IMG/VR virus record: IMGVR_UViG_3300047316_000207
Span: 1 to 28,111 of that record
Source of the DNA: a virus
DNA length: 28,111 nucleotides
Direction: 5' to 3' (one strand)
Shown piece by piece: positions 4,441-27,773 of the stretch. Within the stretch, counting starts at the first letter, position 1. Every line of letters starts with the position of its first letter. The position numbers and the translations under genes were made by a program. The notes under the pieces are model-generated. The model searched no databases. It had not been told where the DNA came from and worked only from the letters and a program-made list of their open reading frames with translations.

Positions 4441-4580
4441 GCAGACCACGCAAGCCCTTAGAAGTCGTCCGTTGCGCATGTGTCTGGTGCGGCGCTATGA
4501 CGTGGTTAGGCGTGGCATTGATCGGAACCGTTGAACCAGAATGCTTTGACTGCTGGAGGAAGCATAATGCCCAGCGATAA
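4437..4580 (+). CDS. 47-aa cysteine-rich zinc-finger-like protein
   Basis: It starts in an ATGA overlap and ends 14 bases inside the next gene. A basic N-terminus (MSRPRKPLEVVR) is followed by C13-x-C15-x2-C18, a hydrophobic middle (MTWLGVALIGTV) and C36-x2-C39 (ECFDCWRKHN). The five cysteines suggest one zinc site of the CxxC...CxxC type with a helical tail. Such small fingers are frequent in phage early operons, with roles rarely known. It lies directly upstream of the nuclease-annealase gene, and the Shine-Dalgarno for that gene (GGAGGAAG) is inside its 3' end, so the two are translationally linked. Confidence 0.55.
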   Translation: MSRPRKPLEVVRCACVWCGAMTWLGVALIGTVEPECFDCWRKHNAQR

Positions 4581-7825: not shown

Positions 7826-8890
7826 TTAAAATCCGCGGCAGAGGACATAGATCTTATCTCCGGCAATATAGTTGCCGTCGACTTCGACCGCCGTCGTGGT
7901 GGGTGCCACATTGAGCGAATATGTAGCCCCGCTGGTCTGCGCGGAGGCGGTGCAGACGGGGGCTGAGGGATACGGCGTGCTGAACGTCGCGAAGCCCGTG
8001 CCCCCAGGCGCGGCGCCAACGGTCACCACGAAGGCATAATTGCGGCCGGTAATGGCCCGTCCCGCGCCACCCCAGCCCCCGCCCACGGTCGGTGTCCCAA
8101 TCGCATCTGTTGTGGTCGCGCCACCGATCGCGAGACTTCCGGTCACACTCAGATTGGTGGCGCCCGGATCGACGGTATTTCCAATACTCACCCCGCCCGA
8201 CGCAAAGAGCCGCATCGCTTCGGTATTGCTCGGAAAGAAGCGGATCGGCGTGGCTGGCAAGGTGGCGAGGTTAAGGCCGCCTGTGCCCGTGCCAACGAGG
8301 ACGGAGCTGTTCGCGATATTGTAATTCTGCCCCGCTGGGAGAAACGTGGAGGAGAGTCCTTCCAAGACGGTGAGCGCGGGGTTCAGGTCATTCCCAAGTT
8401 GCACGACTGTGCCATTGCCGGTGCCGGCGGTTAAATTCCTGATGAGCAGGCTTTGATTGCCCGTGCCGCCGGCGGTAAAGGTATGACTCCCGAACCCCGT
8501 CGCCGTGAAGAGGCCGGCGAGCGTCATCGTCGTGCCGGATTCTGAGAACAGGCTATTGCCCAATGACGTGGGCGTGAGAAATTTACTCAGCACGCCAGTC
8601 GTGCCGCTGACCGAGGAGCCAGAGGCCAAGCCGGTGCCATTGAAAAACAGCGATCCGCCAATGGAATAGAGCTTATTAGTCGTAATGGTGGGAGCGCCGC
8701 TGGGCAAGACGACAGCCGCCGCCGTGATACCGCTATCAGGCGCGGGCGTTGTGCTGCCGAGCGGACAGCCCGCACAGACGGACGCGGGGCTGGGCGTGGT
8801 CGTCGTCACGGTCGTAAACGCCCCTGGTCGTGGCTGCGCAGAGGCAGAGGCCGCGACGAGCAGCGCGCAGAGGGTCAGAAAGATTTTCAT
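7826..8890 (-). CDS. Fibre-like protein with an export signal, 354 aa
   Basis: Last gene of the minus block. The N-terminus is a convincing Sec signal peptide (MKIFLTLCALLVAASASAQ, cleavage after ASA). The rest is Gly/Thr/Ser/Asn-rich beta sequence with short repeats typical of phage fibre shafts and tips: GTTGVLSKFLTPTSLGNS, MRLFASGGVSIGNT, ATNLSVTGSLAIGG. The C-terminal part (YAFVVTVGAAPGGTGFATF to YIAGDKIYVLCRGF) looks like a small beta-sandwich. It overlaps the upstream fibre gene by four bases. A signal peptide on a fibre-like virion protein is odd: it may be exported, or the hydrophobic start may have another use in the virion. Fibre assignment is by composition and position. Confidence 0.65.
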   Translation of the reverse strand: MKIFLTLCALLVAASASAQPRPGAFTTVTTTTPSPASVCAGCPLGSTTPAPDSGITAAAVVLPSGAPTITTNKLYSIGGSLFFNGTGLASGSSVSGTTGVLSKFLTPTSLGNSLFSESGTTMTLAGLFTATGFGSHTFTAGGTGNQSLLIRNLTAGTGNGTVVQLGNDLNPALTVLEGLSSTFLPAGQNYNIANSSVLVGTGTGGLNLATLPATPIRFFPSNTEAMRLFASGGVSIGNTVDPGATNLSVTGSLAIGGATTTDAIGTPTVGGGWGGAGRAITGRNYAFVVTVGAAPGGTGFATFSTPYPSAPVCTASAQTSGATYSLNVAPTTTAVEVDGNYIAGDKIYVLCRGF

Positions 8891-9576
8891 GCGGGCACTT
8901 TCACAAGTTGAATGGCCCAGGCAAAGCCGGAGCCCGTATCGACTTTCGCCTTGATGCCGTAGTTCTTCACGCTGCCCCCGGCGGCGAAGGTAATGGGGCC
9001 GCTCGTGATCACATTGCCAGCCGCATTGCTGCCCGACATTTCGACAATCGGCGTATCTGGCGCCCCATCCGTCAGATTGACGAGTGCGACCGTCACGATC
9101 GCCGCGCCTAGCGTGCTCAACGCCATCCCCTGCAGTTTGTAGATGCCCGGTGCCAAGTTGGCGCTATCGAGGGGATAGATGGCCGTCCCCGCGTGGCAAC
9201 TGGCAAAGGTTGGGCCGAGCGGATAGCCCGTGGTAATGGGTGAGGTCGGATCGCCGCCAAAAACAAAGATGGTATAGACGCCGGATTGCGTCAGGCCGAC
9301 AGAGCCGACCGGGTCGGTGGAATCGATGACGACACCGAGGGCATCCGTCAGGATGAATTTATAGCTCGTTGCCGCGAGATAGATTTTGTAACGGCCACCG
9401 GCTGAGAGAACGATCGGATTCGTATTCGGGACGGTCAGATCGGCATCCTGCCATGTGGTCGCCAGCGTGCCCACGAGGCCAGCCGCATAGGTCCAGAGGA
9501 AGCCGCCATCCAGCGGAAAGCCGTTATCGTCCAAGGCTTGCGGAAAGGCATACGGCGCTAAGGTGCCCAGACTCAC
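8887..9576 (-). CDS. Tail fibre/spike protein with podovirus-type N-terminal domain, 229 aa
   Basis: The N-terminal 90 residues carry a common phage fibre signature: ALDDNGFPLDGGFLWTYAAG, then TWQDADLTVPNTNPIVLSA, GGRYKIYL and SYKFILTDALGVVIDSTDP. This resembles virion-attachment domains at the base of podovirus fibres and spikes. The remaining residues form a beta-rich C-terminal region (IYKLQGMALSTLGAAIVTVAL, FAWAIQLVKVPA) that could be a receptor-binding or adaptor part. It starts inside the stop of the preceding ejection-type gene and overlaps the following fibre gene, so the two fibre genes are likely made together. Confidence 0.7.
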   Translation of the reverse strand: MSLGTLAPYAFPQALDDNGFPLDGGFLWTYAAGLVGTLATTWQDADLTVPNTNPIVLSAGGRYKIYLAATSYKFILTDALGVVIDSTDPVGSVGLTQSGVYTIFVFGGDPTSPITTGYPLGPTFASCHAGTAIYPLDSANLAPGIYKLQGMALSTLGAAIVTVALVNLTDGAPDTPIVEMSGSNAAGNVITSGPITFAAGGSVKNYGIKAKVDTGSGFAWAIQLVKVPA

Positions 9577-14597: not shown

Positions 14598-14872
14598 TTG
14601 GCGCAGACCGTCCAATTCGTGCCGTTATAGAACGCGCCGACCGTCAACGCGCCCCCGCCAGCCACGACGCTGCCCCAGGTATTGACCGTGGAATCCGTCA
14701 CGACGAACACCATGCCGGCCACAGGCTGCGGCAAGTTCGCAAACGTCACCGGCGCCGAGTTGCCTGGGGTGCCATTCACCGCCGCGCGCAGCCCCGTGAA
14801 CCACTGGCCCCACGGATAACTGAGCAGATGGCCTTCCAGCGGCGCCGTCAGTTGCGGGAACGGCGTAATCAT
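14594..14872 (-). CDS. Small structural-type protein, 92 aa
   Basis: An ATGA-overlapped gene between the gp10-like hub and the acetyltransferase. The sequence has a pattern common in small phage proteins: FANLPQPVAGMVFVVTDSTV, then TWGSVVAGGGALTVGAFYNG and TNWTVCAK. It is probably a compact beta domain, with an N-terminal arm (PFPQLTAPLEGHLLSYPWGQW). Its size and place, just after gp10, match small tail-needle or fibre-adaptor genes, but no coiled-coil needle sequence is present. The precise role is unknown. Confidence 0.6.
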   Translation of the reverse strand: MITPFPQLTAPLEGHLLSYPWGQWFTGLRAAVNGTPGNSAPVTFANLPQPVAGMVFVVTDSTVNTWGSVVAGGGALTVGAFYNGTNWTVCAK

Positions 14873-16296
14873 GAGGGCCCGACGCTCACATCAATCAAGG
14901 CATCCACCCAACGCGACGGCACCGGATCCGTATCGATGAAGCGATCCACGCGGTTGCGCGCCTGCCCGCACTGCGTCCAGCGCACGCGCGTATCAAAGGC
15001 GCCAATCGCCCCGCTCGAGGCCCACTGTTCATTACCCCACGTCTGCCCGCCATCCTTCGAGGTCTGCCGCATGATCTGCGGGTCCGAGCCCTGCCCGCGC
15101 TGCACGCCTTGCCCGACGTCCATCACAAGCTGGATCGCATGCGTCGTGAACCGCTTCTGGTCAAACGACAGCCGCGGCGGCTGCCGTAGACGACGAATCG
15201 CCGCGCCGTCCACATCGGTAAATAGATCCGTCCCCATCCGGTAGATTGCTCCCGTGAGTCGGTCCTGCACCAGATTCCGATCGGGGTGCGCAAAGAACAT
15301 CGGCCGATACGCCAGCCATTGCGCCTGCCGCGTATCCCAATACAGCCGCTCGTGCCACAGGCTTGTCGCCTGATCAAAGACCCATGTCCGTTCGGCGCTC
15401 GGGAACGTCAGCACATAGAAGGTGTGGCCGTTCTCCTGATAACTGAACGCCACCGCATCCGAGAGATCGCCATACGTCGCGATCGACGCTTCCACGGCAT
15501 GCGTGCTGATGCGGCTGGGCGTATACCCAGAGGCCGACACCACCTGTCCATGTCCCTGCTCATTATGCGAGAGCCAGATCAGTGATTTATCCAGCCGCGC
15601 GCCCGAAAACGCCGCCGCCGTGCCCGTCTGCATAAACGCCTCTTGAATCGAGGCAAAGGGAAACGGTGCCGTCCCGGCGTCATACCAGACTTCTGAGGTG
15701 TGATCCCCGAGCAAATAGATCAGACGATTGACGACATAGAGGGACCGCCACGGGTCGCTGCCGTCCGTGCGCTGCTGGATGTTCCCAAGGTCGATACTGA
15801 GGAAATTCTCAAACGCCGTGACTTGCAGGGTAGAAGAGGTGGCATCGAGAATGACGCCAAACCCATCCAGAAAGCCGCACATCGTGGCGCCCAGCGTCGT
15901 CGGATTCTGAAAGACGTTCGTAATCAGGTCCAACACATAAAACTGATTGCCGCTGGTCAGGCCCAATTGATTCCCGGCATCCCCGTTAGACATGAAGGTC
16001 ACGGGCGAGGCATTGCGCTCGATGATGCCGCGCGACACGGCGGTATTGCCGACGAGCTCATAGAGCGTAAACCCCGTGACGAAGAAGGTCCGCTCGCCGA
16101 GGGAAAACATGCCGCCGCCGAAATTCGCCGTGGGGGCGACAATCAATTCAAAGCCTGGACACTGAAGGAGCGCCCCCGGCGTCGGGGCCGTCTGTGATTC
16201 GTTCAGCTCAACGTAGCGATTGATCAGGCGTTCGGCATCGGCCATGTAGGACTGGCTTTGATACGACGGGCCGAGGAAGCCGGGATAGCTAGGCAT
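14869..16296 (-). CDS. P22 gp10-like packaged-DNA stabilisation / tail hub protein, 475 aa
   Basis: The length matches P22 gp10 (about 472 aa). The beginning GFLGPSYQSQSYMADAERLINRYVEL is the usual opening of this family, and repeating beta blades follow: MFSLGERTFFVTGFTLYEL, VTFMSNGDAGNQLGL, GFLDGFGVILDATS, SLYVVNRLIYLLGDHTSEVW, DKSLIWLSHNEQGHGQV, VAFSYQENGHTFYVLTFPSA, TWVFDQATSLWHE and SKDGGQTWGNEQWASSG. In P22 the protein caps the portal/gp4 ring, holds DNA in and anchors the needle and spikes. Its position just after the gp4-like gene supports the same function here. Confidence 0.8.
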   Translation of the reverse strand: MPSYPGFLGPSYQSQSYMADAERLINRYVELNESQTAPTPGALLQCPGFELIVAPTANFGGGMFSLGERTFFVTGFTLYELVGNTAVSRGIIERNASPVTFMSNGDAGNQLGLTSGNQFYVLDLITNVFQNPTTLGATMCGFLDGFGVILDATSSTLQVTAFENFLSIDLGNIQQRTDGSDPWRSLYVVNRLIYLLGDHTSEVWYDAGTAPFPFASIQEAFMQTGTAAAFSGARLDKSLIWLSHNEQGHGQVVSASGYTPSRISTHAVEASIATYGDLSDAVAFSYQENGHTFYVLTFPSAERTWVFDQATSLWHERLYWDTRQAQWLAYRPMFFAHPDRNLVQDRLTGAIYRMGTDLFTDVDGAAIRRLRQPPRLSFDQKRFTTHAIQLVMDVGQGVQRGQGSDPQIMRQTSKDGGQTWGNEQWASSGAIGAFDTRVRWTQCGQARNRVDRFIDTDPVPSRWVDALIDVSVGPS

Positions 16297-16638: not shown

Positions 16639-17676
16639 TTATCGGTTCGAGGTCGTCGTATTGCCCGTGAGGTAATTCCAGCCCGCGCCCAAGCCCGGCA
16701 CAAGCGCCGGATCGATCGACATCGCCCCCGGGTCGACATTCGGCTTTTTCATGTTCTCAAAGGCCGCGCTGGCCATCCGGGGCAACAGGGGCGGAATCTG
16801 CACGCCAAACGGCCCGCAGAAGCGCAAGGCGAGCTGATACAGGAACGCATCCTGATAGCCCGGCGGCCCTTGCAGGATGCTGTCGAGGCTGGCTGGCACC
16901 CCGACCGCCTGCGGCGTATAGAGCACAATCGACAGACTCTGCGGCTGCGGCCACAGAAACAGTGTCCCATGCGCATCGGCCAGATTCGTTTGGTAAAAAC
17001 TCTGTGTCGGCAACGCAGATGGCAACCCCTTAATCGACAGCGACGAAAACGCATCCTCGTCCATCATCCCAATCGGCACTTCGATGGCGGGCGATGAGCC
17101 GGGAATGAGAAAGCTAATGGCATTAATCCACATCGGTCGGTCAATGTTCACCGTCTGCCCGATGCCGACCAGCACGCTGGACGTCGAGGCCGGCCAGACA
17201 AACGTCGTCTGCAATTGCAGCGACAGCGTCAGCCGATCCGCCGCCCAGGTGTCAATCATCGTCTGCACGCGCCGCAGGCCGAGGGCAATCTGGCCCGCGT
17301 TGGCCTGTTCGCCCGGCTCGAGCACGCCGATCTCGACCAGCGCATCCGTGATGAGCGACCGGACGGTATAGGCCAGCGCGAAGACGCCTGAGGCTGGTGT
17401 CGCCGCCGCCGTCGTGGCCACCTGAATCGAGGCCGAGACGGCGCCGAGGCCCGTAAACGTAAACGCAATCAGGGCGCCGTTCGTCTCGGCTTGCGAGGGC
17501 CGGTAGGTGTAATACCCGTGGCCTTCCGGCGTGCAGATCCCCGCCCCGACGCTGCCAATGGCCTGGACGCCGCCATCCACGGTGACGTAGACCGTGACGA
17601 CGCCGACGTAATCGAGGCCCGTCGAGGCATCGACCATCTGCGCGCCAATGACCTGATTCGGCTGGTTAATGACCAT
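16639..17676 (-). CDS. P22 gp4-like tail adaptor fused to an N-terminal beta domain, 345 aa
   Basis: Residues of about 103-345 resemble the P22 gp4 tail accessory family: TVRSLITDALVEIGVLEPGE, then ALGLRRVQTMIDTWAADRL, a central strand region (FVWPASTSSVLVGIGQTVNI), MMDEDAFSSLSIKGLPSALP, LFLWPQPQ and a final helix (ALRFCGPFGVQIPP, AFENMKKPN). gp4 extends the portal ring. Residues 1 to about 90 are an extra domain (NQVIGAQM, GVVTVYVTVDGG, GYYTYRPSQAETN, LIAFTFTG) clearly related to the free-standing protein at 23206-23502. The protein is therefore longer than P22 gp4 (166 aa) by a fused domain and a longer core. The extra domain may display an attachment surface at the neck. Confidence 0.75.
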   Translation of the reverse strand: MVINQPNQVIGAQMVDASTGLDYVGVVTVYVTVDGGVQAIGSVGAGICTPEGHGYYTYRPSQAETNGALIAFTFTGLGAVSASIQVATTAAATPASGVFALAYTVRSLITDALVEIGVLEPGEQANAGQIALGLRRVQTMIDTWAADRLTLSLQLQTTFVWPASTSSVLVGIGQTVNIDRPMWINAISFLIPGSSPAIEVPIGMMDEDAFSSLSIKGLPSALPTQSFYQTNLADAHGTLFLWPQPQSLSIVLYTPQAVGVPASLDSILQGPPGYQDAFLYQLALRFCGPFGVQIPPLLPRMASAAFENMKKPNVDPGAMSIDPALVPGLGAGWNYLTGNTTTSNR

Positions 17677-17701
17677 GAGAAGTCGCGCCTAGTCTACACC
17701 C

Positions 17702-18589
17702 TCAGTGTGTTTCCGGCTGGGTTCGCGTGGGGCCAAGGAGCTGGTTACTATCGGCCGCCCATTCCGGTTTAAACCGCTGCACCAGCAAGATTGAGACGCT
17801 GGGCTCCCGCACATTGCGGGCCTGCGCCGACTGGGGCACTGGTTTGGGGTTCGGCCAGTCCAGCGGGCGCACGGGGCGTGCAATCGGCAGCGTCAACAGG
17901 CCCAGGTCGTTGAGCGTATGACTGCCCTGCTGCGACTTCGCCGCCTGCGGGTTCGGCCAATCGGTCTGATGCGTCGGCAAGCCAACCGGCGGCGGCAGGA
18001 ACGCATTGCGCCCCTGTGGGTCATTGACCTTCGCCAGTTGGATCGTCGCCGGGTTGAGCCAATCGCGCTGACGGAATGGCGGCGCAATCGCGGTGACAGG
18101 CAAGCCCAGCCGACTCGGCACTTGATCGGCCACCAGAGACGGCAGCTTCGGTGCCGTCGGCCAGTCATACTGAATGAACGCAGGACTCGTTTGGTCCTGC
18201 ATGTAGTAAAACAGGTGCGTGTCGGGCTTCAGCGTCGGGCGAGCCGGCAGCGGGAAGTCTTGATTAAAGAACGGCTGCCCAGGCGGCGGCAGGGGCAACA
18301 GAATCCGGTTGTAGACCGGATCAATCACCATCTGTAGCAACGGCGCCGCGGGCGTCGGCCAGAGCGTCTGGCTAAACGGCAGCACCTTGGACGGTGGCTG
18401 CGGGCGATGATGCCAGACGCCTAGCGCCGGCAGACGTGGCGGCGGATCGATATCGGGGCCGATAAATGGTAACGCGGCGGCGAGGGGCAGACGGACGTTG
18501 AAATTGGGCTGTGAGTGCGCGCTATTGGCGGCTGTCGTCGACAAAGCCGCAATCGCCGTGATCAGCGGCGCGCGGAAGATCGTCGCCAT
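17702..18589 (-). CDS. Repeat protein with DWPNP-type units and a shared C-terminal tail, 295 aa
   Basis: The start directly follows the stop of the beta-helix gene. The N-terminus (PLITAIAALSTTAANSA) is a weak signal-like segment. The body has about seven degenerate units of 35-40 residues built on [Y/T/R]DWxNP or an equivalent with Pro-rich spacers: LWPTPAAP, QDFPLPARP, YDWPTAPKLP, RDWLNPATI, TDWPNPQAA and LDWPNPKPV. The last residues contain FKPEWAA, SNQLLGP and QPETH, which recur at the end of the 603-aa protein at 23526-25337. I have seen similar DWPxP repeats in uncultured phage proteins of unknown function. It lies directly upstream of the gp4-like gene. A virion surface or assembly role is a guess. 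Confidence 0.65.
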   Translation of the reverse strand: MATIFRAPLITAIAALSTTAANSAHSQPNFNVRLPLAAALPFIGPDIDPPPRLPALGVWHHRPQPPSKVLPFSQTLWPTPAAPLLQMVIDPVYNRILLPLPPPGQPFFNQDFPLPARPTLKPDTHLFYYMQDQTSPAFIQYDWPTAPKLPSLVADQVPSRLGLPVTAIAPPFRQRDWLNPATIQLAKVNDPQGRNAFLPPPVGLPTHQTDWPNPQAAKSQQGSHTLNDLGLLTLPIARPVRPLDWPNPKPVPQSAQARNVREPSVSILLVQRFKPEWAADSNQLLGPTRTQPETH

Positions 18590-19786
18590 CTACATCACAC
18601 TCGCCGCCCACAAATCACTGGGAGGCGGCACCGCCACAAATTCATACGCGCCGATATCGAACGCCGAGCCCTGCGGGCGCGTCACGCCGAGAATGTCGGT
18701 CGTATAGGCGTTGGTCGTGCCCGTATCAATCGCGGGACTGCCCGCCGCTAATTGGAAATTGTTACCCGAGGGATTGACGAAGACCGGGCCGATCCCCACC
18801 AGATTCGTCACCAGCGTCGAGGAGGCATCGTCTACGAGATTATTCGCCGTATTCGCATAGACGATATTGTTTTCAATCGTCGCCCGACCCGTCCCCCCAG
18901 ATACGACGTAGATCCCAAAGGTGGCATTTGCCGTGACGGTATTCTGATAGACCAGCACGCCAGTATTGCCGCCGCTGACGATAATGGCCCCATTCCCGCC
19001 CCCCGCGACGGAGAGGTTATAGACGACGTTGTTATAGACCTGTGCGCCTGTGCCAGCCCCGATGAAAATGCCGCTACTAAACCCAGGCGAGCGAGAGACA
19101 TCATGCACGAGACAGTTGCGCACGATGTTGTTGTCGATGGAGAACGCATCATTATTGATGACGATGCAATTGCCGCTGGAATCATAGGCATTGCAGTTGC
19201 TGATCAGATTGTTCGACGTCGCAACATGAATCGCTGGCGCATAATCGCCCGCATCCCCGCAGCCATGTACCGTGAGGTTGAGCAATTCGTTCCCGCCTGT
19301 GAGCCCTCCGACTTCTGACGTCAGCTCGAAACAGCCGAAGGCCGCCGTGCCTTCATTGATGACGCCATTGGTCGGCCCAATGCATTCGGCATTCTGGAAG
19401 CGGATGTGATTCGGATTCCCACCGGACCACCCACGCAGATAGACGCAGCCGATCGTGATGCCGCGCGTGGCATCCAGATTGATACCGGTGAATTCGATAT
19501 ATTGTTGCGCGCCATCAAATTGCACGACATTGGCATAGCCCGCGCCCGCTGTCGGCGCGAGCCAAACCGTTGTGCCAGCGGCCGCTTGAATGCGCGTCGG
19601 CGCCCCCCACGACGCGCCAGAGGGCACGTTATCGAGAATGCCTTCTGGATAGGTGCCCGCGCCGATGATGAGCGTATCCCCGCCAGCCAGCAACGCACAG
19701 CCCGCCGTCACGGTGAGCTTCGCGAGGGCAGGCGATGTGCCGTTGTTGGCGTCGTTGCCCGTCGTCGCGACGTAGAAGGTCGCCAT
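18590..19786 (-). CDS. Right-handed parallel beta-helix protein, 398 aa
   Basis: ATG at 19786 in a TGATG overlap with the upstream IPT protein. The start (TFYVATTGNDANNGTSPALA) is the common opening of pectate-lyase-like and DUF1565-type proteins. Repeated beta-helix coils follow: VVQFDGAQQYIEFTGINLD, HVATSNNLISNCNAYDSS, NCIVINNDAFSIDNNIVRNC, GAQVYNNVVYNLSVAGGG, LVYQNTVTANATFGIYV and ATIENNIVYANTANNLV. The end (GSPAIDTGTT, then RPQGSAFDIGAYEF) matches bacterial secreted beta-helix proteins. No catalytic lyase triad can be asserted. It could be a depolymerising tailspike or a glycan-binding decoration. It has no signal peptide, unlike its upstream neighbour. Confidence 0.75.
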   Translation of the reverse strand: MATFYVATTGNDANNGTSPALAKLTVTAGCALLAGGDTLIIGAGTYPEGILDNVPSGASWGAPTRIQAAAGTTVWLAPTAGAGYANVVQFDGAQQYIEFTGINLDATRGITIGCVYLRGWSGGNPNHIRFQNAECIGPTNGVINEGTAAFGCFELTSEVGGLTGGNELLNLTVHGCGDAGDYAPAIHVATSNNLISNCNAYDSSGNCIVINNDAFSIDNNIVRNCLVHDVSRSPGFSSGIFIGAGTGAQVYNNVVYNLSVAGGGNGAIIVSGGNTGVLVYQNTVTANATFGIYVVSGGTGRATIENNIVYANTANNLVDDASSTLVTNLVGIGPVFVNPSGNNFQLAAGSPAIDTGTTNAYTTDILGVTRPQGSAFDIGAYEFVAVPPPSDLWAASVM

Positions 19787-22380
19787 CAGGTCACCGTGAA
19801 TTGAATGCCGTTCGACTGCACCCCGCCGACCGTCACCCGCACTTGCCCCGTCGTGGCGCCCGCTGGCACCGTCACGGTAATGGACGTAGCCGACCACGCA
19901 CTGACGGCGGCGGTGACACCATTAAACGTGACGGTTGATGTCGTCTGCGTGGCGCCAAAGTTGGTGCCGGTCAGCGTCACCGTCGTGCCGATGGGGCCGG
20001 TGGTGACACTAAGACTCGTGAGCGTGGGCGCCGTGCCGGTGACCGTAAACGTCACGCCGTTTGATTGCACGCCATTGACCGTGACGGTCACAATGCCTGT
20101 GGTCGCTCCAGCCGGAACCGTTGTGGTCAGGGAGGTGGCCGACCACGCCGTCACGGTCGCAATGGTGCCATTGAACCGCACGGAGCTCGACCCCTGCGCG
20201 GCACCGAAGTTGACACCCGTGATCGTCACCGCCGTGGCGACCGGCCCTGATGTCGTGCTGAGGCTCACGATCGTCGGGATGCCTTGCAGCGGATGCGGAT
20301 AGATATACGGCGTATATCCCGGTTTCGCGCCGGCATTGAGGACAAAATCTCGATTCTGCTGGATCACTTGCGCGCAGCGGGGATCGCAGTCCTGCCCAGG
20401 GCCGGATTGATTGATATAGATCGAGTTAATGAGCGTGGGGTTCGTATTGGTCGCGGCATTGGCCGAGCTGGTATATTTATTGTTGTTCCAGATATATACC
20501 GGCGTGGACGCTTGCACCGGATAAGGCGGAAACGGATAGACCTGTGGACTCGTATCGGGGCCGCGGCCAATCTGATCGAGGCAGGGGTACCCGGAATTAT
20601 CGGTATTCCCATCGAACGGCGAGGTTCCATGTGCAAACCCTGGATAGGTCGAAACCCCACACATCGCATGCGGCGGCGGATCAATGTAGCAACAGCCGCC
20701 CGCACTGATGAAGTTATAGCTGCGGACGTTATCAAATGCCGCGGCTTGGCTGGGAAACGATCCGGCCCAGCGATTATTGAAAATCACGCCGGTGCCCCCG
20801 CGCAGCAACCATAACCAGTCCGGTGCGGTCGTCGCGCTCGTCAAATCATTCTCGTAGACTTCCCAGCTTTTGCAGCCGCGCGAACTATCCCGCGCAGAGT
20901 GGGCTTCAAAATAGCCGCCGTCCATGTAGTTGTGTCGGAACACATAGGCGCCGAGATGTTGACAATCGATGCCATTGACATATGGACGGATAAACGTGTT
21001 GTCTTCCACATAGACGGCTTTTTCCGTCCCGAAATTTAACGGGGTCGTGCCTTGTGGTGCTTGTGCGTTCCAATACTGCTCCCAGCCCGCCCCAGAGGCC
21101 GGATACCCGTAGAGTTGAATATTCACATCACTAATCGTGTTGTGATCGATCAACCCTTGCGGAATGACGCCAGCGACTGCCGATGTGCTTTGCACGAGGA
21201 TGCCGACATTCACGGGGAAACTACCGGGACAAGTGAATACATTATGGTCGATGCGAAAATTTGACGCCCCACCGTTCCCGAATACTTGCGCGCACGTAAA
21301 CGTAAATCCCGTCAGTCTCGGCTCTTGCGGAAGGTAAGACATCTGGGCCACGACAATGCCCGAGGATGGCGTGATCGTCGTCGTCCCGCCGACGCTCCCT
21401 TGTAGCGTAATCCCCTCATAGATCCACATCCAGCTCCATTGGCAATTCCCTGGTCCCACGCGCACCGTGCCGGTGCCTGGATAGATCGCGGCCATCGCGG
21501 CTTCAACCGTCGACTGATCGCAGGGAATCGTCCCGCCAGTCGTGACGGTAAACGTGAGGCTGTTGGACGTCAAACCGCCCACCGTGACCTGCACGGGGCC
21601 TGTCGTTGCTCCGGTCGGCACGGCGGCGGTAATCGAGGTGGCCGCCCAGCTCGAGGGCGCAGCGGCCACGCCGTTAAACGTCACGAGTGAACTCCCCTGC
21701 GTCGACCCGAAGTTCGTGCCCGTGAGCGTCACGACCGTGCCCACCGGCCCCGTGTTGAGATTCAGACTCGTAAGCACAGGCGGCACGAGCACCGTAAACG
21801 GTTGATTATTGGAGGTCTGTCCAAGCACCACGACATGCACGGGGCCAGTCGTCGCCCCCACTGGCACATTCGTAATAATCGTGCTCGTATTCCAACTGGT
21901 TGCCGTCGCCACGATGCCGTTAAACGTGAGGACAGATGTGCCTTGCGTTGCCCCGAAATTCGATCCGGCCACGGTTACAGGCGTGCCCACTTGGCCGCTC
22001 GTTGGACTCAGACTCCCAATGACCGGCGCGGGCGATGGGATGACCGTAAACGGCTGGCCCACGCTTGCGACCCCACCGCGCGTGACGAGGACTGGCCCCG
22101 TCGTCCCTGCCGGTGGCACCAGCGCCGTAATGGACGTATCCGACCAGGCAATCGTGACGGCTGGGGCGCCATTAAACGTGACGGTGCTGTTTTCTTGGGC
22201 GGGGCCGAAGCTGCGCCCGGTGATGACGACCGAGCTGCCGACTAATCCAGAGTTCGGGGCAATCGTCGTGACGAGCGGCGGATCGGGACGAACAATGACC
22301 TGCCCCGGTGCTGACGGGGCCGCTTGGGCCGCGAGCACCGCCACCAGCGCCAGCAGCGCCAGCCCGATGGCGAAGCGCAT
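19786..22380 (-). CDS. Exported IPT/TIG - beta-helix - IPT/TIG protein, 864 aa
   Basis: The largest protein in the window. Residues 1-21 form a Sec signal (FAIGLALLALVAVLAAQA). Three IPT/TIG immunoglobulin-like domains follow (about 36-113, 118-197 and 200-280), each with the SGxVGTxVTxxGxNFG and GATTGPVxVxVGG signatures. A 420-residue central region (about 285-700) has beta-helix motifs (FRIDHNVFTCPG, GLIDHNTISDVNIQLYG, AVYVEDNTFIRPYVNGIDC, YVFRHNYMDGGYFEAH, SWEVYENDLTSAT) and many cysteines, consistent with oxidative folding outside the cytoplasm. Two more IPT domains end the protein (about 703-783 and 785-864). The likely role is surface glycan binding or depolymerisation. IPT domains of this type are common in Acidobacteriota, suggesting host origin. 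Whether it is virion-borne or secreted by the infected cell is open. Confidence 0.8.
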   Translation of the reverse strand: MRFAIGLALLALVAVLAAQAAPSAPGQVIVRPDPPLVTTIAPNSGLVGSSVVITGRSFGPAQENSTVTFNGAPAVTIAWSDTSITALVPPAGTTGPVLVTRGGVASVGQPFTVIPSPAPVIGSLSPTSGQVGTPVTVAGSNFGATQGTSVLTFNGIVATATSWNTSTIITNVPVGATTGPVHVVVLGQTSNNQPFTVLVPPVLTSLNLNTGPVGTVVTLTGTNFGSTQGSSLVTFNGVAAAPSSWAATSITAAVPTGATTGPVQVTVGGLTSNSLTFTVTTGGTIPCDQSTVEAAMAAIYPGTGTVRVGPGNCQWSWMWIYEGITLQGSVGGTTTITPSSGIVVAQMSYLPQEPRLTGFTFTCAQVFGNGGASNFRIDHNVFTCPGSFPVNVGILVQSTSAVAGVIPQGLIDHNTISDVNIQLYGYPASGAGWEQYWNAQAPQGTTPLNFGTEKAVYVEDNTFIRPYVNGIDCQHLGAYVFRHNYMDGGYFEAHSARDSSRGCKSWEVYENDLTSATTAPDWLWLLRGGTGVIFNNRWAGSFPSQAAAFDNVRSYNFISAGGCCYIDPPPHAMCGVSTYPGFAHGTSPFDGNTDNSGYPCLDQIGRGPDTSPQVYPFPPYPVQASTPVYIWNNNKYTSSANAATNTNPTLINSIYINQSGPGQDCDPRCAQVIQQNRDFVLNAGAKPGYTPYIYPHPLQGIPTIVSLSTTSGPVATAVTITGVNFGAAQGSSSVRFNGTIATVTAWSATSLTTTVPAGATTGIVTVTVNGVQSNGVTFTVTGTAPTLTSLSVTTGPIGTTVTLTGTNFGATQTTSTVTFNGVTAAVSAWSATSITVTVPAGATTGQVRVTVGGVQSNGIQFTVT
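19789..20274 (-). repeat. Tandem IPT/TIG-domain coding repeats (C-terminal pair)
   Basis: Two roughly 240-base units encode the closely similar IPT domains 4 and 5. The same DNA phrases recur (for example GCCACCTCG/GCCGACCACGC near strand ends and GTCGTGGC...GCTGG in the GATTG loop). The two units are more alike to each other than to the N-terminal three, suggesting a recent local duplication. Boundaries are approximate. Confidence 0.6.
21541..22275 (-). repeat. Tandem IPT/TIG-domain coding repeats (N-terminal triple)
   Basis: Three units of about 240 bases encode IPT domains 1-3. The shared phrases VTFNG or LTFNG and GATTGPV mark each unit. Domain 1 is the most diverged, with ENSTVTFNGAP and GTTGPVLV. 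Boundaries are approximate. Confidence 0.55.
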
Positions 22381-22889
22381 TAGAACGGCTCGTAGAGGAT
22401 ATGGGCCGACATGGCGCCAGACGTGCCCGTATCATTCTTCGCGGAGAGCGACATCTCGCCCAAGCTGGAGGTATTGCCCAGCCCGACCGGCCGCGCCTGC
22501 GTGTTGCTGTAGTTCAGGCGCACGATCCCGCCGAAGGCATTGTAGGACGGCGTCAGGAGATAGCCCTGCGTCAGCCGCTGCGGGCCGGTGCTCGCCGCCG
22601 TGAACGTCACGACAATCGTCGCCAAGGCATTGGCCGAGCCATCGAGCGCCCGATCGGCGGCTGGGGCTGACAATGCCGTCGGCGTGATGGCAATCGTGGA
22701 ATGCAGGGCCAGCACCATGTCATTGATAGACGAGGCCGACGCCTGCCCTCCCATGTAGAGTTCTTCGATGGCCCAGCGCTGCGTGCCGCTGCCGCCCTTC
22801 AGCGCCATATACGTGGCGTTGGCGAGGGTGCTGGTATCGGCCGTGTTCGTCGGCGTGAATGTGGTGAAGGTGAAAGAACGCAGAGCCAT
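22380..22889 (-). CDS. Virion-type protein, 169 aa
   Basis: The ATG has AAAGGAGA upstream (reverse strand of about 22900-22907). The protein is beta-rich and lacks charged helices: RSFTFTTFTPTNTADTSTLA, RWAIEELYMGGQASASSIND, VLALHSTIAITPTALSA, IVRLNYSNTQARPVGLGN and MSAHILYEPF. This pattern (a short leader, then RWAIxExYMGG, then MVLALxSTI) is familiar from uncultured phage structural proteins. The stop overlaps the start of the IPT protein as TAATG. It is probably a small capsid-decoration or tail protein; the exact role is unknown. Confidence 0.65.
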   Translation of the reverse strand: MALRSFTFTTFTPTNTADTSTLANATYMALKGGSGTQRWAIEELYMGGQASASSINDMVLALHSTIAITPTALSAPAADRALDGSANALATIVVTFTAASTGPQRLTQGYLLTPSYNAFGGIVRLNYSNTQARPVGLGNTSSLGEMSLSAKNDTGTSGAMSAHILYEPF

Positions 22890-23206
22890 TAGAGCGATCT
22901 CCTTTTCTCGAGAACCAAGTCAAGTTTGCCATCTCCGCAGGCGTCAATGAGTTCTTGCACCGTGAAACAGGCGTTGGTGGCGTGGTAGGTCGCTTCGCAG
23001 GCGCGACAGATATAGCGGGCGCATTTCGGGCACCGGCCCAAGGGCACCGTGCGATTCGGGTTGAGAATCACATTCCGCTGGCAGTGATTGCAGACATGCA
23101 AGGCGGATTCAAACGTGCGACCCTCTGGCACCTCCGGCGTGCCAGGGGAATTCCGATGGTCAATGAGAATGACGCCTTCGTAGGACCGTTGGGAATGGAT
23201 GGGCAT
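22889..23206 (-). CDS. Zinc-finger protein of a common phage type, 105 aa
   Basis: The start overlaps the preceding stop as TGATG. After an N-terminal segment with LIDHRNSPGTP (residues 14-24) and FESALHVCNHCQRNVILNP come seven cysteines: C39, C42, C59, C62, C67, C70 and C80, with His75. They can build two zinc sites (CNHC...CPKC and CRAC...H...C). The motif set IDHRxSPG, then xCxHCxxxVxxNPxR, then CxKCxxYICxxC, is widespread in small proteins encoded among phage structural genes, with unknown function. A structural or assembly role is inferred. Confidence 0.7.
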   Translation of the reverse strand: MPIHSQRSYEGVILIDHRNSPGTPEVPEGRTFESALHVCNHCQRNVILNPNRTVPLGRCPKCARYICRACEATYHATNACFTVQELIDACGDGKLDLVLEKRRSL

Positions 23207-23502
23207 CAGGCGATCCGCTGCTTCGGCGGGATGATGATGTTCGGCACCGTCGCCACCTGCATCGTCACGGCGATAGCGTTCGGGCCGGTAAACGTAAAGG
23301 CCACGAGGGTGTAATTCGTCTCGGCCGCCGTGGGGAAGTAGTTATACAAGCCGTTGCCTTCCGCCTGAATCGACCCAAGCCCGAGCGCCTGCGTGCCGCC
23401 ATCACCCGTCACATAGACAGTCACGACGCCCGCGAAAGGGGAGCCGTTGCCGACGTCAAGCATTTCCGCGCCAATCACTTGACCGGCGACCCCTTTAACC
23501 AT
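23206..23502 (-). CDS. Free-standing copy of the gp4-fused beta domain, 98 aa
   Basis: ATG at 23502 (MVKGVAGQVIGAEM). The sequence GVVTVYVTGDGGTQALGLGS, LYNYFPTAAETNYTLVAFTF and TGPNAIAVTMQVATV aligns along its length with residues 1-88 of the gp4-like protein (16639-17676), with few gaps. Both are encoded just after a Trp/Pro-repeat protein that ends in the same tail. The fold is probably a small beta-sandwich, as in other phage neck or decoration domains. It is either the parent or a spare copy of the fused domain. Confidence 0.7.
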   Translation of the reverse strand: MVKGVAGQVIGAEMLDVGNGSPFAGVVTVYVTGDGGTQALGLGSIQAEGNGLYNYFPTAAETNYTLVAFTFTGPNAIAVTMQVATVPNIIIPPKQRIA

Positions 23503-23525
23503 GAAAGCGCGTGTAGTGTAACACC

Positions 23526-25337
23526 TTAGTGCGTCTCCGGTTGTGACTTCGACGGCCCGAGAAGCTGATTGCTGTTCGCTGCCCATTCCGGCTTGAAATG
23601 CACAATGGCACTGTCATTCCGCCGCGGCTTGACGGATTGCGCCGGCCAATTCGGCTGCCACTGCGCCACCACCGTGCCGAGGTTCGCCACGCTCAACGCG
23701 TAGATCGGCGGCGGCTGCGAGCCAGGCGGCGGCAGACTGGCGATCATCGTCGGCGCCGACTGCGCGGGCCACGTCTGCGCCCACTGGCTGACGGCAATGA
23801 TGATTTCGGTAGCGGTCAGCGGCCCAGATGGCACCGGCTGACTTGAGCCGGGCTGAATGGCCGTCACCGGGCGCGACTGCGCTGCCCACGTCGTCGGCCA
23901 GGAGGCCACGAGAATGGGGAGATCCGAAGACGGTAGCGGCCCAATGACTGGCGGCGGCCCTTGGCCTTGCACCACCACTACGGGGCGGGCTTGGGCCGGC
24001 CATGTCGTCGGCCATGTGCCGATCGACTCCGAGATTTCGGAGGCCGAGAGCGGACCTTGCGGGATAGGCTGTGCGCCCGGCGAAGGCTGAACGACAACAA
24101 TGGGCCGCGATTGGGCCGTCCATACTGTCGGCCATGAAGCCACGACGAGGGCGAGATTCGTCGGATTGATCGGCCCGATCGGCGTCGGCTGATTGACAAC
24201 CGGCGCAATGAACCATGCCGCCAGCTTCGGCCCCGTCTGCGCCGGCCACTCGGTCGGCCAAAGCCGCTCGATCAGCAGTTCTGTGGGCGTTAGGAAACCC
24301 TGAATCGGCGGCTGATCACCCGTCGATGGCTGCTCGAGCGTCGTTAGCCGCTGCGGCACGCCCCACTCGCGTGGCCACAACTGCCCGATCGCGATCTCTG
24401 TTGGCGTCAAAGGCCCGACGTTGATCGTCGGCGTCGTCGGCTGCGTGGCGGCGACGGCCTTGGATTGCGAGGACCACGTGATTTCCCACGTCAGCCGAAT
24501 CTGCGCCAACTGTGACGCTAAGAGCGGACTCTGCCGAACCGGCTGATCCCCGCTGGACGGTTGCACCAGCAGCGGCGCACGCTGCGCCGGCCAATCGATC
24601 GCCCAACTGCGCTGGATGGCTATTTCAGTCGGACTGCTCGGTCCCGTAATCGGCGGCTGATCCGGGTTATCTGGCGCAATCGTCCACGTTGTGACGACTT
24701 CAATAACCGTCGCGTCATACCAGGCGGAGAGAATACTGCTCTGCTCGCGCGGGGCCGGAAGGAAGGACGGCGCCCCCGATGGCGGCGGAATGATCGCGGC
24801 GTTGATGGGTGGCTTCTGCGCGGGCCAATCCGTTGGCCACGATCGCGTAATCGCTAATTCGGTTGCGCTCAGGGGCGCATTGATCGGCGGCTGATCCCCG
24901 GTGAGCGGTTGAACGAGTTGGTTTAATTCCTGCGGCTGACTCCAGCCGATCGGCCACGAGCCCACGAGCGATTGCCGCACATAGGGAATCGTGATCGAGG
25001 GAATAGGCGGCGGAATCAGCGCCGCGCCAGTCTCTGCTTGCTGCGCTGACCATGCTTCTGGGTTCCAGCCGATCGTCGGGAGTCGATACGTCTGCCGCGG
25101 CGTCGGTTGATCGCCGCTCGGGAGCGTCAGCGGCGCGATCTTGTTCTGTTGGTTATTCGGCGCTTGCAGGCGTGGTTCTAAGGACGTGGGCCACGAGGCC
25201 AGCACCGCCACCATCATCAAGGCGGCCTGCACCTGACGCCGCGGCGGCTGATCACCGGATGTCTGCGGCTCGTGCGGGACCGGCGGCGCATAACTCGCCG
25301 ACTGGCTCGGCGGCGGCGGCGGATAGAAAAACGCCAT
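23526..25337 (-). CDS. Long SWPTxWPAQ-repeat protein with shared C-terminal tail, 603 aa
   Basis: Starts MAFFYPPPPPSQSASYAPP. It then carries about thirteen units of 40-50 residues, each with a core like [S/T/L]WPTxWPAQ: SWPIGWSQPQ, SWPTDWPAQK, SWAIDWPAQR, TWEITWSSQS, LWPREWGVPQ, LWPTEWPAQT, SWPTVWTAQS, TWPTTWPAQA, SWPTTWAAQS, QWAQTWPAQS and QWQPNWPAQS. Between cores there is GDQPPI or an equivalent, then GPLTPTEIAI. The final residues contain FKPEWAA, SNQLLGP and QPETH, shared with 17702-18589. No known domain is recognised. Repeats with periodic Trp and Pro suggest an elongated surface protein or a scaffold that binds a repeating lattice. The overall length is set by repeat number, so it may vary between relatives. 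Confidence 0.7.
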   Translation of the reverse strand: MAFFYPPPPPSQSASYAPPVPHEPQTSGDQPPRRQVQAALMMVAVLASWPTSLEPRLQAPNNQQNKIAPLTLPSGDQPTPRQTYRLPTIGWNPEAWSAQQAETGAALIPPPIPSITIPYVRQSLVGSWPIGWSQPQELNQLVQPLTGDQPPINAPLSATELAITRSWPTDWPAQKPPINAAIIPPPSGAPSFLPAPREQSSILSAWYDATVIEVVTTWTIAPDNPDQPPITGPSSPTEIAIQRSWAIDWPAQRAPLLVQPSSGDQPVRQSPLLASQLAQIRLTWEITWSSQSKAVAATQPTTPTINVGPLTPTEIAIGQLWPREWGVPQRLTTLEQPSTGDQPPIQGFLTPTELLIERLWPTEWPAQTGPKLAAWFIAPVVNQPTPIGPINPTNLALVVASWPTVWTAQSRPIVVVQPSPGAQPIPQGPLSASEISESIGTWPTTWPAQARPVVVVQGQGPPPVIGPLPSSDLPILVASWPTTWAAQSRPVTAIQPGSSQPVPSGPLTATEIIIAVSQWAQTWPAQSAPTMIASLPPPGSQPPPIYALSVANLGTVVAQWQPNWPAQSVKPRRNDSAIVHFKPEWAANSNQLLGPSKSQPETH

Positions 25338-25338
25338 G

Positions 25339-26508
25339 CTATTGCGTCAGGATGCCGACCATATAAGTCTGCCGCGGCACTTGCCCCGGCGGCGCCGTGG
25401 GATTGTATGCCACGACGACGCCGCATTCGTAAAGGCTCACCGTCGTGAGCGCCGTCGTCGTGATGAGCCCGATATCCGTCCCGCCTGCGGGATAGGTCGT
25501 GGAACCTTTCGCCGCCATAAAGAGTGTCGGCGTCGACGTCAGCGCCGCATTGCTCGTCGAGCCGCCGACAATCAACGACGCCGTTTCGCCCGCCAACGCT
25601 GAGGCGAAGGCCCAGCCCATCCAGTCATATAGCGTCAGGCCCGTAATGTTGACATCGCCCGTCGCGGCGTTTTCTACGCTGTATTCTTCCGTGACGGCCG
25701 AGCCCGCCCCGACCATCGACCAGCCGTTCGTCTGGCTCAGCGGCTGTTCATTCACTTGAGGCGCATGACCGGAGCCATACCCGGACCCGCCCGCGCCGAT
25801 CTGCGTCGTGAAGCCGTTCGTCGTGCCATTACTGAAGGGCCGTTTCGCCGTGACCCTGATATCACCAGGGTCCGCCAAGTCAGTGCCATTATCCAGATAG
25901 ATATCGTCATACCAAACTTGTAAATTGGAAATCGTATCCCCGCTGAGCGCCTTCGACAGCGTGGGGCCAAATTCACTCGTGGCGGTATGCAATAACGTGG
26001 CGTCGGCGTTGGTGCGCGTCAGCTCCAGCGCGCCGTTGATATAGATTTTGCACGTCCAATTCGTCGTGGTCGTAATCACCCAGGACATACCAATGCGCGT
26101 CCACGTCGTTGCCGCGATCGTCGTGGCGCCTGCCGCGCCAATGGCCGACGCCGCATTGAATCCATTCAAGAGTTCGATCTTTCCGCTGGATGTCACGCCC
26201 AGGCCCAATACACCCGATCCGAATACGGCCTGATTTATCAGGAGTACACACATATTGGTCGATGGGGTCGCGCTGAGCCGCATCCAAAACGAGCAGCGGG
26301 TGCCCGCATCCGCACAGACGCCATCTCCCGATCCTAGAAACACGGTATGCGGGGTGCCCGTCGTATCGAGCTTCAGTGATCGCGTTCCGGTATGCGCCTG
26401 ATCGGATGCCGAGGCCGCCGTGCCGCCCGCTGAGACATCGACATTCGGCCAAAACGTCAGATCTTGCGTGGCATCCGTTCCCGGATCAAGAAACTTCGTG
26501 GTCGGCAT
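25339..26508 (-). CDS. LamG/concanavalin-like plus beta-sandwich virion protein, 389 aa
   Basis: The ATG overlaps the upstream stop as TAATG. Residues of about 20-215 look like a concanavalin/LamG-type jelly roll: AHTGTRSLKLDTTG, FWMRLSATPSTNMCVLLINQ, GLGVTSSGKIELLNGFNA, WTRIGMSWVITTTTNWTCKI, YINGALELTRTNAD and NLQVWYDDIYLDNG. The remaining part (DLADPGDIRVTAKRPFSNGT, then VTEEYSVENAATGDVNITGL and LYECGVVVAYNP) forms a second beta domain. This combination is common in tail or surface proteins of uncultured phages. It may bind sugars next to the GH30 enzyme encoded just upstream. Carbohydrate binding is inferred from the fold. Confidence 0.7.
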   Translation of the reverse strand: MPTTKFLDPGTDATQDLTFWPNVDVSAGGTAASASDQAHTGTRSLKLDTTGTPHTVFLGSGDGVCADAGTRCSFWMRLSATPSTNMCVLLINQAVFGSGVLGLGVTSSGKIELLNGFNAASAIGAAGATTIAATTWTRIGMSWVITTTTNWTCKIYINGALELTRTNADATLLHTATSEFGPTLSKALSGDTISNLQVWYDDIYLDNGTDLADPGDIRVTAKRPFSNGTTNGFTTQIGAGGSGYGSGHAPQVNEQPLSQTNGWSMVGAGSAVTEEYSVENAATGDVNITGLTLYDWMGWAFASALAGETASLIVGGSTSNAALTSTPTLFMAAKGSTTYPAGGTDIGLITTTALTTVSLYECGVVVAYNPTAPPGQVPRQTYMVGILTQ

Positions 26509-27773
26509 TAAGTGCTCGTGCCCGCAAACGTCGTCACACTCGATGCGGCGAGCGTCGTTGACAGCACACCCGCCACCACCGCTACGCCCGTCTGCGCCGC
26601 TAAATCATGCGTGGCATCCGTGAGGTAGGGCGTCATCGTGGTTAGACGCCGCGGTAGACCAAAGGTCAGCGTGGCGGCGCTGCCAGTATTGATCGCCACA
26701 ATGACATACGAAGTCCCTGAGACAAACGCTGTCACGGATACCCCACTGACCGTGCCAGTCGTGGATACCCGCACATACCCAGGCCGGATAAATTTCGCAA
26801 AATTTCCCAGCGCATAGGATCTTTTCGTCGTTTGCGTTGGCGCCCCGTTGTAGCCGACCAGGTTCTCGTTATCGGATTGGTTGCCCCCTTCAAGCTCCCA
26901 CCAATGCCACGCCGTCACGTTCGCGACGGTTAACGCCGCATGGATATCACCAACCATCGTCAGCGCATTCGTCATGGTCGGATCGAAGGCGTTGAAATAA
27001 GACATTTCTGACATCCAATTGCGATAATTCGCAACAGGCGTGGCATTGTTGCCCGCGTATTGATGCCACGCCACGATATCGAGATAGGCCGCCGCGGTGC
27101 CATCCGCCAACATCGCATTTACATACCCTGCCATGAGCGTGGCATCGGAGACTTCCGGCAAGATCAGATGTGGCACAGGTGAGAGCGCGGCCAGTTTGGG
27201 GCCAAGCACCTTGACGAAATTGACCATCTCAGCGTTCGTATAGATCATCGAATTGTAGGTCGCCACGAAATTCGGCTCGCCCTGCACGCTGATGCCGTAG
27301 AGATTCACGCTTGCGGATGATTGGCAGGTGGCCTGAAAACCCGCCATGCGCGTGGCCCAATCGTCATAATGCCCGACGAGCAGATGACCCCCATTATTTA
27401 AGTCCCCGTTATCTTTCCATGCCGCCGGCGCAGTCCATGGGGCCATCCAAATAATGGCCCCGCGCGCCGCCGCTTTCGTCAGGTTCGTGGGAAAGCCAGC
27501 GCTGCCGCTGCCATCGGAATACATGGTGGTGCGGAGAATCGTCAGGCCCAGTTGGCCCGTGCCGGTGCCAAAGAAAAAATCGGCATCGGCATCCGTCATC
27601 GTGATGCAGTTGCGATCGCACGCCCCAAACCCGTCCATCGTCTGTTGCGGGGTAAAGCGATTGATCGTGATATCACCGATCCCGTCAGGGCCGGTAATGT
27701 TGGTGGGCGTGATGCCGTGCCCACGGGTCGACGGAATGTAATAGGTGCCCATAAGCCCGTTACCTATGGGCAC
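26508..27773 (-). CDS. GH30-family glycoside hydrolase (xylanase/glucanase-like), 421 aa
   Basis: A complete TIM barrel plus C-terminal beta-sandwich, without a signal peptide. Diagnostic pieces in order: TMDGFGACDRNC (45-56), LGLTILRTTMYSDG (75-88), IIWMAPWTAPAAWKDNG (107-123), LYGISVQGEPNF (158-169) with acid/base Glu166, LDIVAWHQYAG (231-241), NWMSEMSYF (252-260) with nucleophile Glu256, and AWHWWELEGG (288-297). The beta domain (about 330-421) includes SGTSYVIVAINTGSAATLTF. GH30 enzymes retain anomeric configuration and cut beta-linked xylans or glucans. The closest general resemblance is to the glucuronoxylanase-like branch, but the Arg-binding signature was not verified. A GTG at 27773 or an ATG at 27752 could start it; both are in a hairpin. 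Probably a virion-borne depolymerase or a host-derived accessory enzyme. Confidence 0.85.
   Translation of the reverse strand: MPIGNGLMGTYYIPSTRGHGITPTNITGPDGIGDITINRFTPQQTMDGFGACDRNCITMTDADADFFFGTGTGQLGLTILRTTMYSDGSGSAGFPTNLTKAAARGAIIWMAPWTAPAAWKDNGDLNNGGHLLVGHYDDWATRMAGFQATCQSSASVNLYGISVQGEPNFVATYNSMIYTNAEMVNFVKVLGPKLAALSPVPHLILPEVSDATLMAGYVNAMLADGTAAAYLDIVAWHQYAGNNATPVANYRNWMSEMSYFNAFDPTMTNALTMVGDIHAALTVANVTAWHWWELEGGNQSDNENLVGYNGAPTQTTKRSYALGNFAKFIRPGYVRVSTTGTVSGVSVTAFVSGTSYVIVAINTGSAATLTFGLPRRLTTMTPYLTDATHDLAAQTGVAVVAGVLSTTLAASSVTTFAGTST

Follow-up and report, generated by a model that had tools for sequence, protein, structure and literature searches.

What ties a small beta domain to the gene in front of it, when the same domain stands behind two otherwise different repeat proteins in a single viral genome? 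The question is raised by the window (IMG/VR virus record IMGVR_UViG_3300047316_000207; the whole stretch of DNA that was analysed, 28,111 bases), in which open reading frame (ORF) calls place two gene pairs on the minus strand, pair A at 25337-23206 and pair B at 18589-16639. An initial sequence-only reading had noted that a repeat protein followed by an NQVIGA-type domain is present twice, which the ORFs and the 55-56% identity of the two domains bear out, and had proposed that repeat protein and domain work together. That proposal is strongly supported, with a change of partner: what goes with the domain is a C-terminal tail of ~15-23 residues; the Trp/Pro repeat is not the partner, since proteins of unrelated kinds have this tail and are followed by this domain. 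The pairing is wider than Trp/Pro repeat protein plus domain. On balance, we favor the view that tail and domain are the two halves of a docking module used by uncultivated tailed phages, in which a variable adhesin with a C-terminal plug is received by an immunoglobulin (Ig)-like socket on a neck or tail component of the virion. The parts of the two pairs are as follows.

23526..25337, minus strand: repeat protein A, 603 amino acids (aa), a Trp/Pro-rich tandem repeat of ~39 aa plus C-terminal tail (ORF, repeat spacing)
23529..23597, minus strand: tail A, FKPEWAANSNQLLGPSKSQPETH (translation, motif family)
23206..23502, minus strand: domain A, a free NQVIGA-type domain of 98 aa, predicted to be Ig-like (ORF; ATG at 23502, stop at 23206)
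17702..18589, minus strand: repeat protein B, 295 aa, Trp/Pro-rich plus C-terminal tail (ORF; kinship with A in the tail only)
17705..17773, minus strand: tail B, FKPEWAADSNQLLGPTRTQPETH (codon comparison with tail A)
17407..17676, minus strand: domain B, an NQVIGA-type domain, predicted to be Ig-like, the N-terminal part of an adaptor protein (sequence comparison; AlphaFold2 predicted local distance difference test, pLDDT, ~95-97 here)
16639..17391, minus strand: gp4-type head-tail (portal) adaptor, C-terminal part of the protein that begins with domain B (phrog_12985, phrog_637 (Ad3), Foldseek)

Repeat protein A has 11 W..W..Q motifs, spaced mostly 37-42 aa apart. An alternative in-frame ATG further upstream, at 23586, would extend domain A to 126 aa. 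The downstream ORF of pair B (17676-16639) encodes 345 aa, of which residues 1-90 are the NQVIGA domain.

Association of tail with domain was surveyed in loci gathered by adaptor and domain-alignment scans (~300 from IMG/VR and 5 from bacterial genomes). This set of 306 loci, which are designated by L numbers and were selected by domain, comprises 129 unique domains and 10,840 unique ORFs of at least 60 aa. Of these ORFs, 95 have the strict tail motif, F-x3-W-A-x2-[SA]-N, which lies within the last 36 residues in 94 of the 95. A domain gene follows every one of the 94, within 100 nucleotides (nt) in 89 and within 2.5 kb in the other 5. Approached from the domain side, 89 of the 129 unique domains have a regex-matching tail directly upstream; the remaining 40 are mostly accounted for by contig edges, tandem second copies, tails one gene away and variant tails recognised by eye (for example FQPAWAANVNIIL, FKPYWFHNSNIII and FVAAWARGSNVVL). 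The bacterial-genome loci, found by domain alone, have the tail in 5 of 5 cases.

The search was also run in the opposite direction, with DNA encoding FQxAWARx..N, through 2.9 million viral contigs. It yielded 14 stretches, 13 of them C-terminal in real ORFs, and all 13 have a domain gene next to them; two of these domains are divergent and had been missed by the domain scans. (The domain-selected set already included 11 of the 13 contigs, so that what this search provides is independent ascertainment more than an independent sample.) The fourteenth stretch was rejected as a chance match in a 30-aa frame. The possibility raised at the outset, that the two genes might not be neighbors in other genomes, is clearly contradicted by both directions of search.

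The proteins upstream of the domain have little else in common. When the tail is excluded, 65 surveyed upstream partners fall into 42 clusters that are unrelated to one another; 19 of the 65 match Laminin_G_3 (a LamG-type lectin), and single ones match tail-fibre or virion families. What follows the domain also varies: in most relatives it is a stalk-like low-complexity region, in others a gp4-type adaptor, and in the free form nothing. A QPETH extension of the tail accompanies 16 of 22 gp4-fused or free domains and none of the 53 others. In a few loci the two parts are found in one chain. The single 745-aa ORF at L180:2936-5170 consists of a lectin-like body, a degenerate tail and the domain, and in L090 and L299 the tail is a short leader of the domain.

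Across loci the codons of the tail vary synonymously (at A6, GCG/GCC/GCT/GCA are used 26/20/19/19 times; the two codons of F, 47/42; those of N10, 42/44), a pattern that marks the tail as under selection for its protein sequence. This bears on an alternative in which the tail-domain junction is a recombination boundary: adhesins would be exchanged by crossover in conserved tail-domain DNA, and the proteins need not touch. Such a boundary would account for swapped upstream bodies with the tail as their conserved edge, for the decoupling of domain identity from adaptor identity (described below), and for the correlation of tail with domain similarity (Mantel r 0.32-0.39, p 5e-4). On the other hand, a tail that is conserved as protein while its synonymous codons are randomised has diverged too far for lineages to recombine in it by homologous crossover, and neither the C-terminal confinement of the strict motif in 94 of 95 ORFs nor the persistence of both parts around an intervening gene is what a mere boundary would lead one to expect. 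We regard this explanation as quite improbable.

Intervening genes are found in L053, L056, L062, L083 and L236, each of which retains both tail and domain. (In L083, at 8032-9468, and also in L053, L056 and L062, a protein of 464-479 aa with the C-terminus ...H/DVF[SA]VNC lies between the tail gene and a gp4-fused domain gene; the L083 copy has no Pfam match.) Where the genes are adjacent, the commonest junction is a 4-nt stop/start overlap (38 of 89 pairs). ORF offsets range from -54 to +16 nt and fall in all three frames, so a programmed frameshift joining the two ORFs was rejected as a general device.

In the docking arrangement that we favor, the upstream gene would encode a variable surface-binding protein (repeat protein, LamG-type lectin or other) ending in a plug, FxxxWAxx[S/A]Nxx[I/L/V], and the downstream gene would begin with a socket, an Ig-like domain of ~90 residues belonging to some component of the virion's neck or tail. 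The socket would be carried by a gp4-type portal adaptor in pair B, probably by a stalk-like virion protein in most relatives, and by a free domain in pair A. Binding of plug to socket would keep the adhesin attached to the virion; if the upstream gene were exchanged, a new adhesin with the same docking end would take its place. Besides the co-occurrence of tail and domain, we are led to this reading by their retention despite an inserted gene, by the one-chain fusions, and by conservation of the domain beyond that of the adaptor to which it is joined.

The last point comes from the gp4-fused relatives of pair B. In seven of these (L035, L053, L124, L128, L131, L132 and L140) the domain keeps 58-69% identity to that of B, against only 26-34% for the adaptor part. 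In L110, L127 and L143 the adaptor has a gene of its own, which lacks an NQVIGA domain. That pair B's domain is fused to a gp4-like adaptor, as first read, is upheld by family and by fold: the adaptor part matches phrog_12985 (E=5.8e-25) and phrog_637 (head-tail adaptor Ad3; E=1.1e-4), has a tblastn match (2e-19) to an annotated 'tail adaptor' in cultured phages, and its predicted structure finds, as best Foldseek matches, portal-tail chains of podoviruses (9k09, 8zkk, 8jov and 9bgm), with T7 gp11 (7box) matching more weakly. The next gene but one after the adaptor gene is

14869..16296, minus strand: head closure Hc3, P22 gp10 type (phrog_578, E=1.1e-84)

and these adaptor matches, with Hc3 as neighbor, put the predicted place of pair B at the neck of the virion. 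PHROG 12985 and PHROG 637, the P22 gp4-type adaptors, are the families to which the B protein's C-terminal part belongs. Whereas the annotated cultured homologues are adaptor alone, the B protein adds the NQVIGA domain, which was not found in the cultured phage collection holding those homologues.

The domain itself is modeled as a well-ordered all-beta fold, whose best Foldseek matches are mostly Ig-like, at E 0.015 or weaker. The window's NQVIGA domains have no Pfam profile match; a divergent relative weakly matches Big_6 (0.027). Sequence searches with domain and tail gave no Pfam, PHROG or Protein Data Bank (PDB) match. The notion that the tail is a copy of the domain's first strand (SNQLIG compared with AGQVIG) was tried and dropped, the best 6-residue match not exceeding shuffles and the 7-residue match having p=0.54.

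Several observations weigh against the docking reading. When the complex of shared tail and domain is predicted with AlphaFold2, as had been suggested at the start, the domain is confident and the tail is not confidently docked: tail pLDDT is 37-47 for pair B of the window and 52-64 for L151, with at most 17 paired rows, and the L151 tail forms only a short helix and a 3-residue strand. (In these runs stop codons were read as Gly to join the parts, with a +1 shift in the window case; with so few paired rows and joined ORFs, the models are inconclusive rather than clearly negative.) A few domains, those of L039, L041, L093, L159 and L178, have no recognisable tail upstream. Physical linkage alone could produce the correlation between tail and domain similarity. 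Finally, sequence searches of solved structures and of cultured phages turned up no example of the pair.

The lack of docking in these models would suit an alternative in which tail and domain are both virion parts under selection but the tail has its binding site elsewhere (on the capsid, the portal or a trimerisation partner), gene order reflecting operon co-expression and co-translational assembly. The prevalence of the 4-nt overlap, which is typical of translational coupling, points the same way. An exclusive, one-to-one co-occurrence in both search directions is harder to reconcile with a binding site elsewhere, and the one-chain fusions favor a direct relation of the two parts; we consider this alternative unlikely. 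A further variant keeps the contact and changes its nature: the tail would contribute a segment needed to complete the Ig-like domain encoded next, in the manner of donor-strand complementation, forming a split-fold connector that makes unrelated adhesins exchangeable on portal adaptors and stalks in many phage lineages. L090, L299 and L180 would then be the unsplit form, and degeneracy of the L180 tail would reflect relaxation once docking was no longer needed. We hold this version only tentatively, as a somewhat unlikely one.

Modes of attachment resembling the proposed docking module are known. The fibre of T7, gp17, on gp11/gp12, and the tailspike arrangement of Peru-2 P2_41 exemplify adaptor-docked fibres and tailspikes with an N-terminal anchor (PMC13320782). 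The likeness lies in a variable, carbohydrate-binding adhesin placed at the portal-tail adaptor by a conserved anchor, and in the partner, which in pair B likewise has an adaptor fold. The difference is that the T7 and Peru-2 anchor is N-terminal, whereas the conserved part here is a short C-terminal tail and its partner a separate Ig-like domain. A conserved N-terminal tail-binding domain of gp17 type is not found in repeat proteins A and B, which have no Pfam or PHROG match and share only their C-terminal part. Ig-like decoration domains of tailed phages, discussed for Peru-2 P2_50 and thought to contact host surfaces (PMC13320782), are likewise small domains on virion proteins, portable between genes, and have the Ig-like fold that is predicted here; they would contact the host themselves, whereas the NQVIGA domain is tied to the tail motif of a preceding adhesin gene. 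Lactococcal phages of the 936 group offer a further resemblance: their neck and tail proteins carry carbohydrate-binding modules that can be exchanged, and two of these modules have been shown to bind cells (PMC6669499). There the modules are domains of structural proteins, and the abstract describes no pair of plug tail and socket (PMC6669499).

Cultured phages searched with domain, divergent domain and tail consensus gave nothing credible; a match in Gordonia phage Schmidt (E 0.8) was rejected as antisense to annotated genes. A literature search, whose coverage stopped short of subscription journals, found no description of the tail-domain pair. Unrelated adhesins are not recognisable by homology. 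The signature of tail plus domain, which can be found from either side, marks an adhesin gene in metagenomic phages and, for the B type, predicts its place on the virion as the portal adaptor. It suggests that tail and socket allow different adhesins to be plugged interchangeably into the virion.

How did one genome come to have two such pairs? Base-by-base alignment gives 240 identities in 363 bp (66%, E=8e-18), and thus corroborates the similarity of both junctions, intergenic bases included, that the sequence-only reading described. The similarity begins ~25 codons before the repeat-gene stop and continues across the intergenic gap and through the domain; further upstream in the repeat genes there are only short matches at chance level. 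Its confinement to protein ends holds on the upstream side only, since gap and domain are similar as well. At the protein level the last 26 residues of the repeat proteins are all that align (19 of 26 identical, E=3e-10), and protein alignment detects no relation between the repeat bodies outside the tail. The junction similarity is real, far above chance, and ends upstream at the shared tail. Tail A differs from tail B by 13 synonymous and 4 non-synonymous codons, with 6 identical, which is why the similarity of the tails appears to be old and maintained at the level of protein.

The gap contains a short element in each pair.

23508..23520, minus strand: intergenic element TACACTACACGCG of pair A, TANACTA 11 nt before the ATG (motif count, relatives)
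17684..17696, minus strand: intergenic element TAGACTAGGCGCG of pair B, TANACTA 13 nt before the ATG (motif count, relatives)

The pattern TANACTANNCGCG occurs exactly twice in the window, at these two junctions, against 0.03 expected (an optimistic figure, as the pattern was written after both sites had been seen), and none of 100 shuffles has two. The 7-mer TANACTA alone is not significantly enriched. In relatives the element core is found 11-14 nt before the ATG of the domain gene and hardly anywhere else in the locus. L053, L062 and L083, in which a gene other than the tail gene precedes the gp4 gene, have it 5' of the gp4 gene too. The element resembles a -10-type promoter for the domain gene, and because it is present even where the tail gene stands apart, intergenic similarity does not require a segmental duplication.

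The initial claim of an old duplication of one contiguous segment, and not two separate gains, is only partly supported and fares less well than the similarity on which it was built. Similarity of tail, gap and domain together, with the shared intergenic DNA as a relic, is what in-situ duplication would leave. Both pairs are present in several relatives, and free NQVIGA domains followed in tandem by NQVIGA-gp4 fusions (L157:6001-7325 and L030:6477-7807) offer a precedent; in these loci, to judge by the sequences, the domain has been duplicated. In the domain tree (all 97 rows, with too few columns for deep forks, so that only the placements of A and B are used), A falls with the L024 type of gp4-fused domain (95/94), whereas B falls with L023 (98/97); forcing A and B into one clade costs 12.5 log units and is not rejected (approximately unbiased test, p-AU 0.17). 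These best placements speak against duplication in situ, as do the repeat bodies, with no detectable relation, and the intergenic element, which is nearly confined to that position and is shared by relatives that have a single pair or whose tail gene stands apart. Duplication in place, which is compatible with any of the functional readings, seems to us a serious possibility that falls somewhat short of even. It appears at least as likely that pair A was imported from a different gp4 lineage and lost its adaptor part.

Other genes of the window are recorded here for completeness. Directly 3' of free domain A (22889-23206, minus strand) is a 105-aa cysteine-rich protein (CNHC..CPKC..CRAC) with weak likeness to the IBR zinc-binding domain (E 0.0024). 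The DNA separating the two pairs encodes, on the same strand, a protein with five TIG domains (19786-22380; PF01833, 1.7e-50) and a right-handed beta-helix protein (18590-19897; PF13229, 7.3e-9), both lacking the tail. Upstream of pair A, the product of 26508-27773 (minus strand) matches the TIM barrel of glycoside hydrolase family 30 (E 4.9e-6) and is a possible candidate depolymerase. A 495-aa ORF on the plus strand (4531-6018) encodes a 5'-3' exonuclease and, towards its C-terminus, has a weak RecT-like match (0.0081); it could be a fusion.

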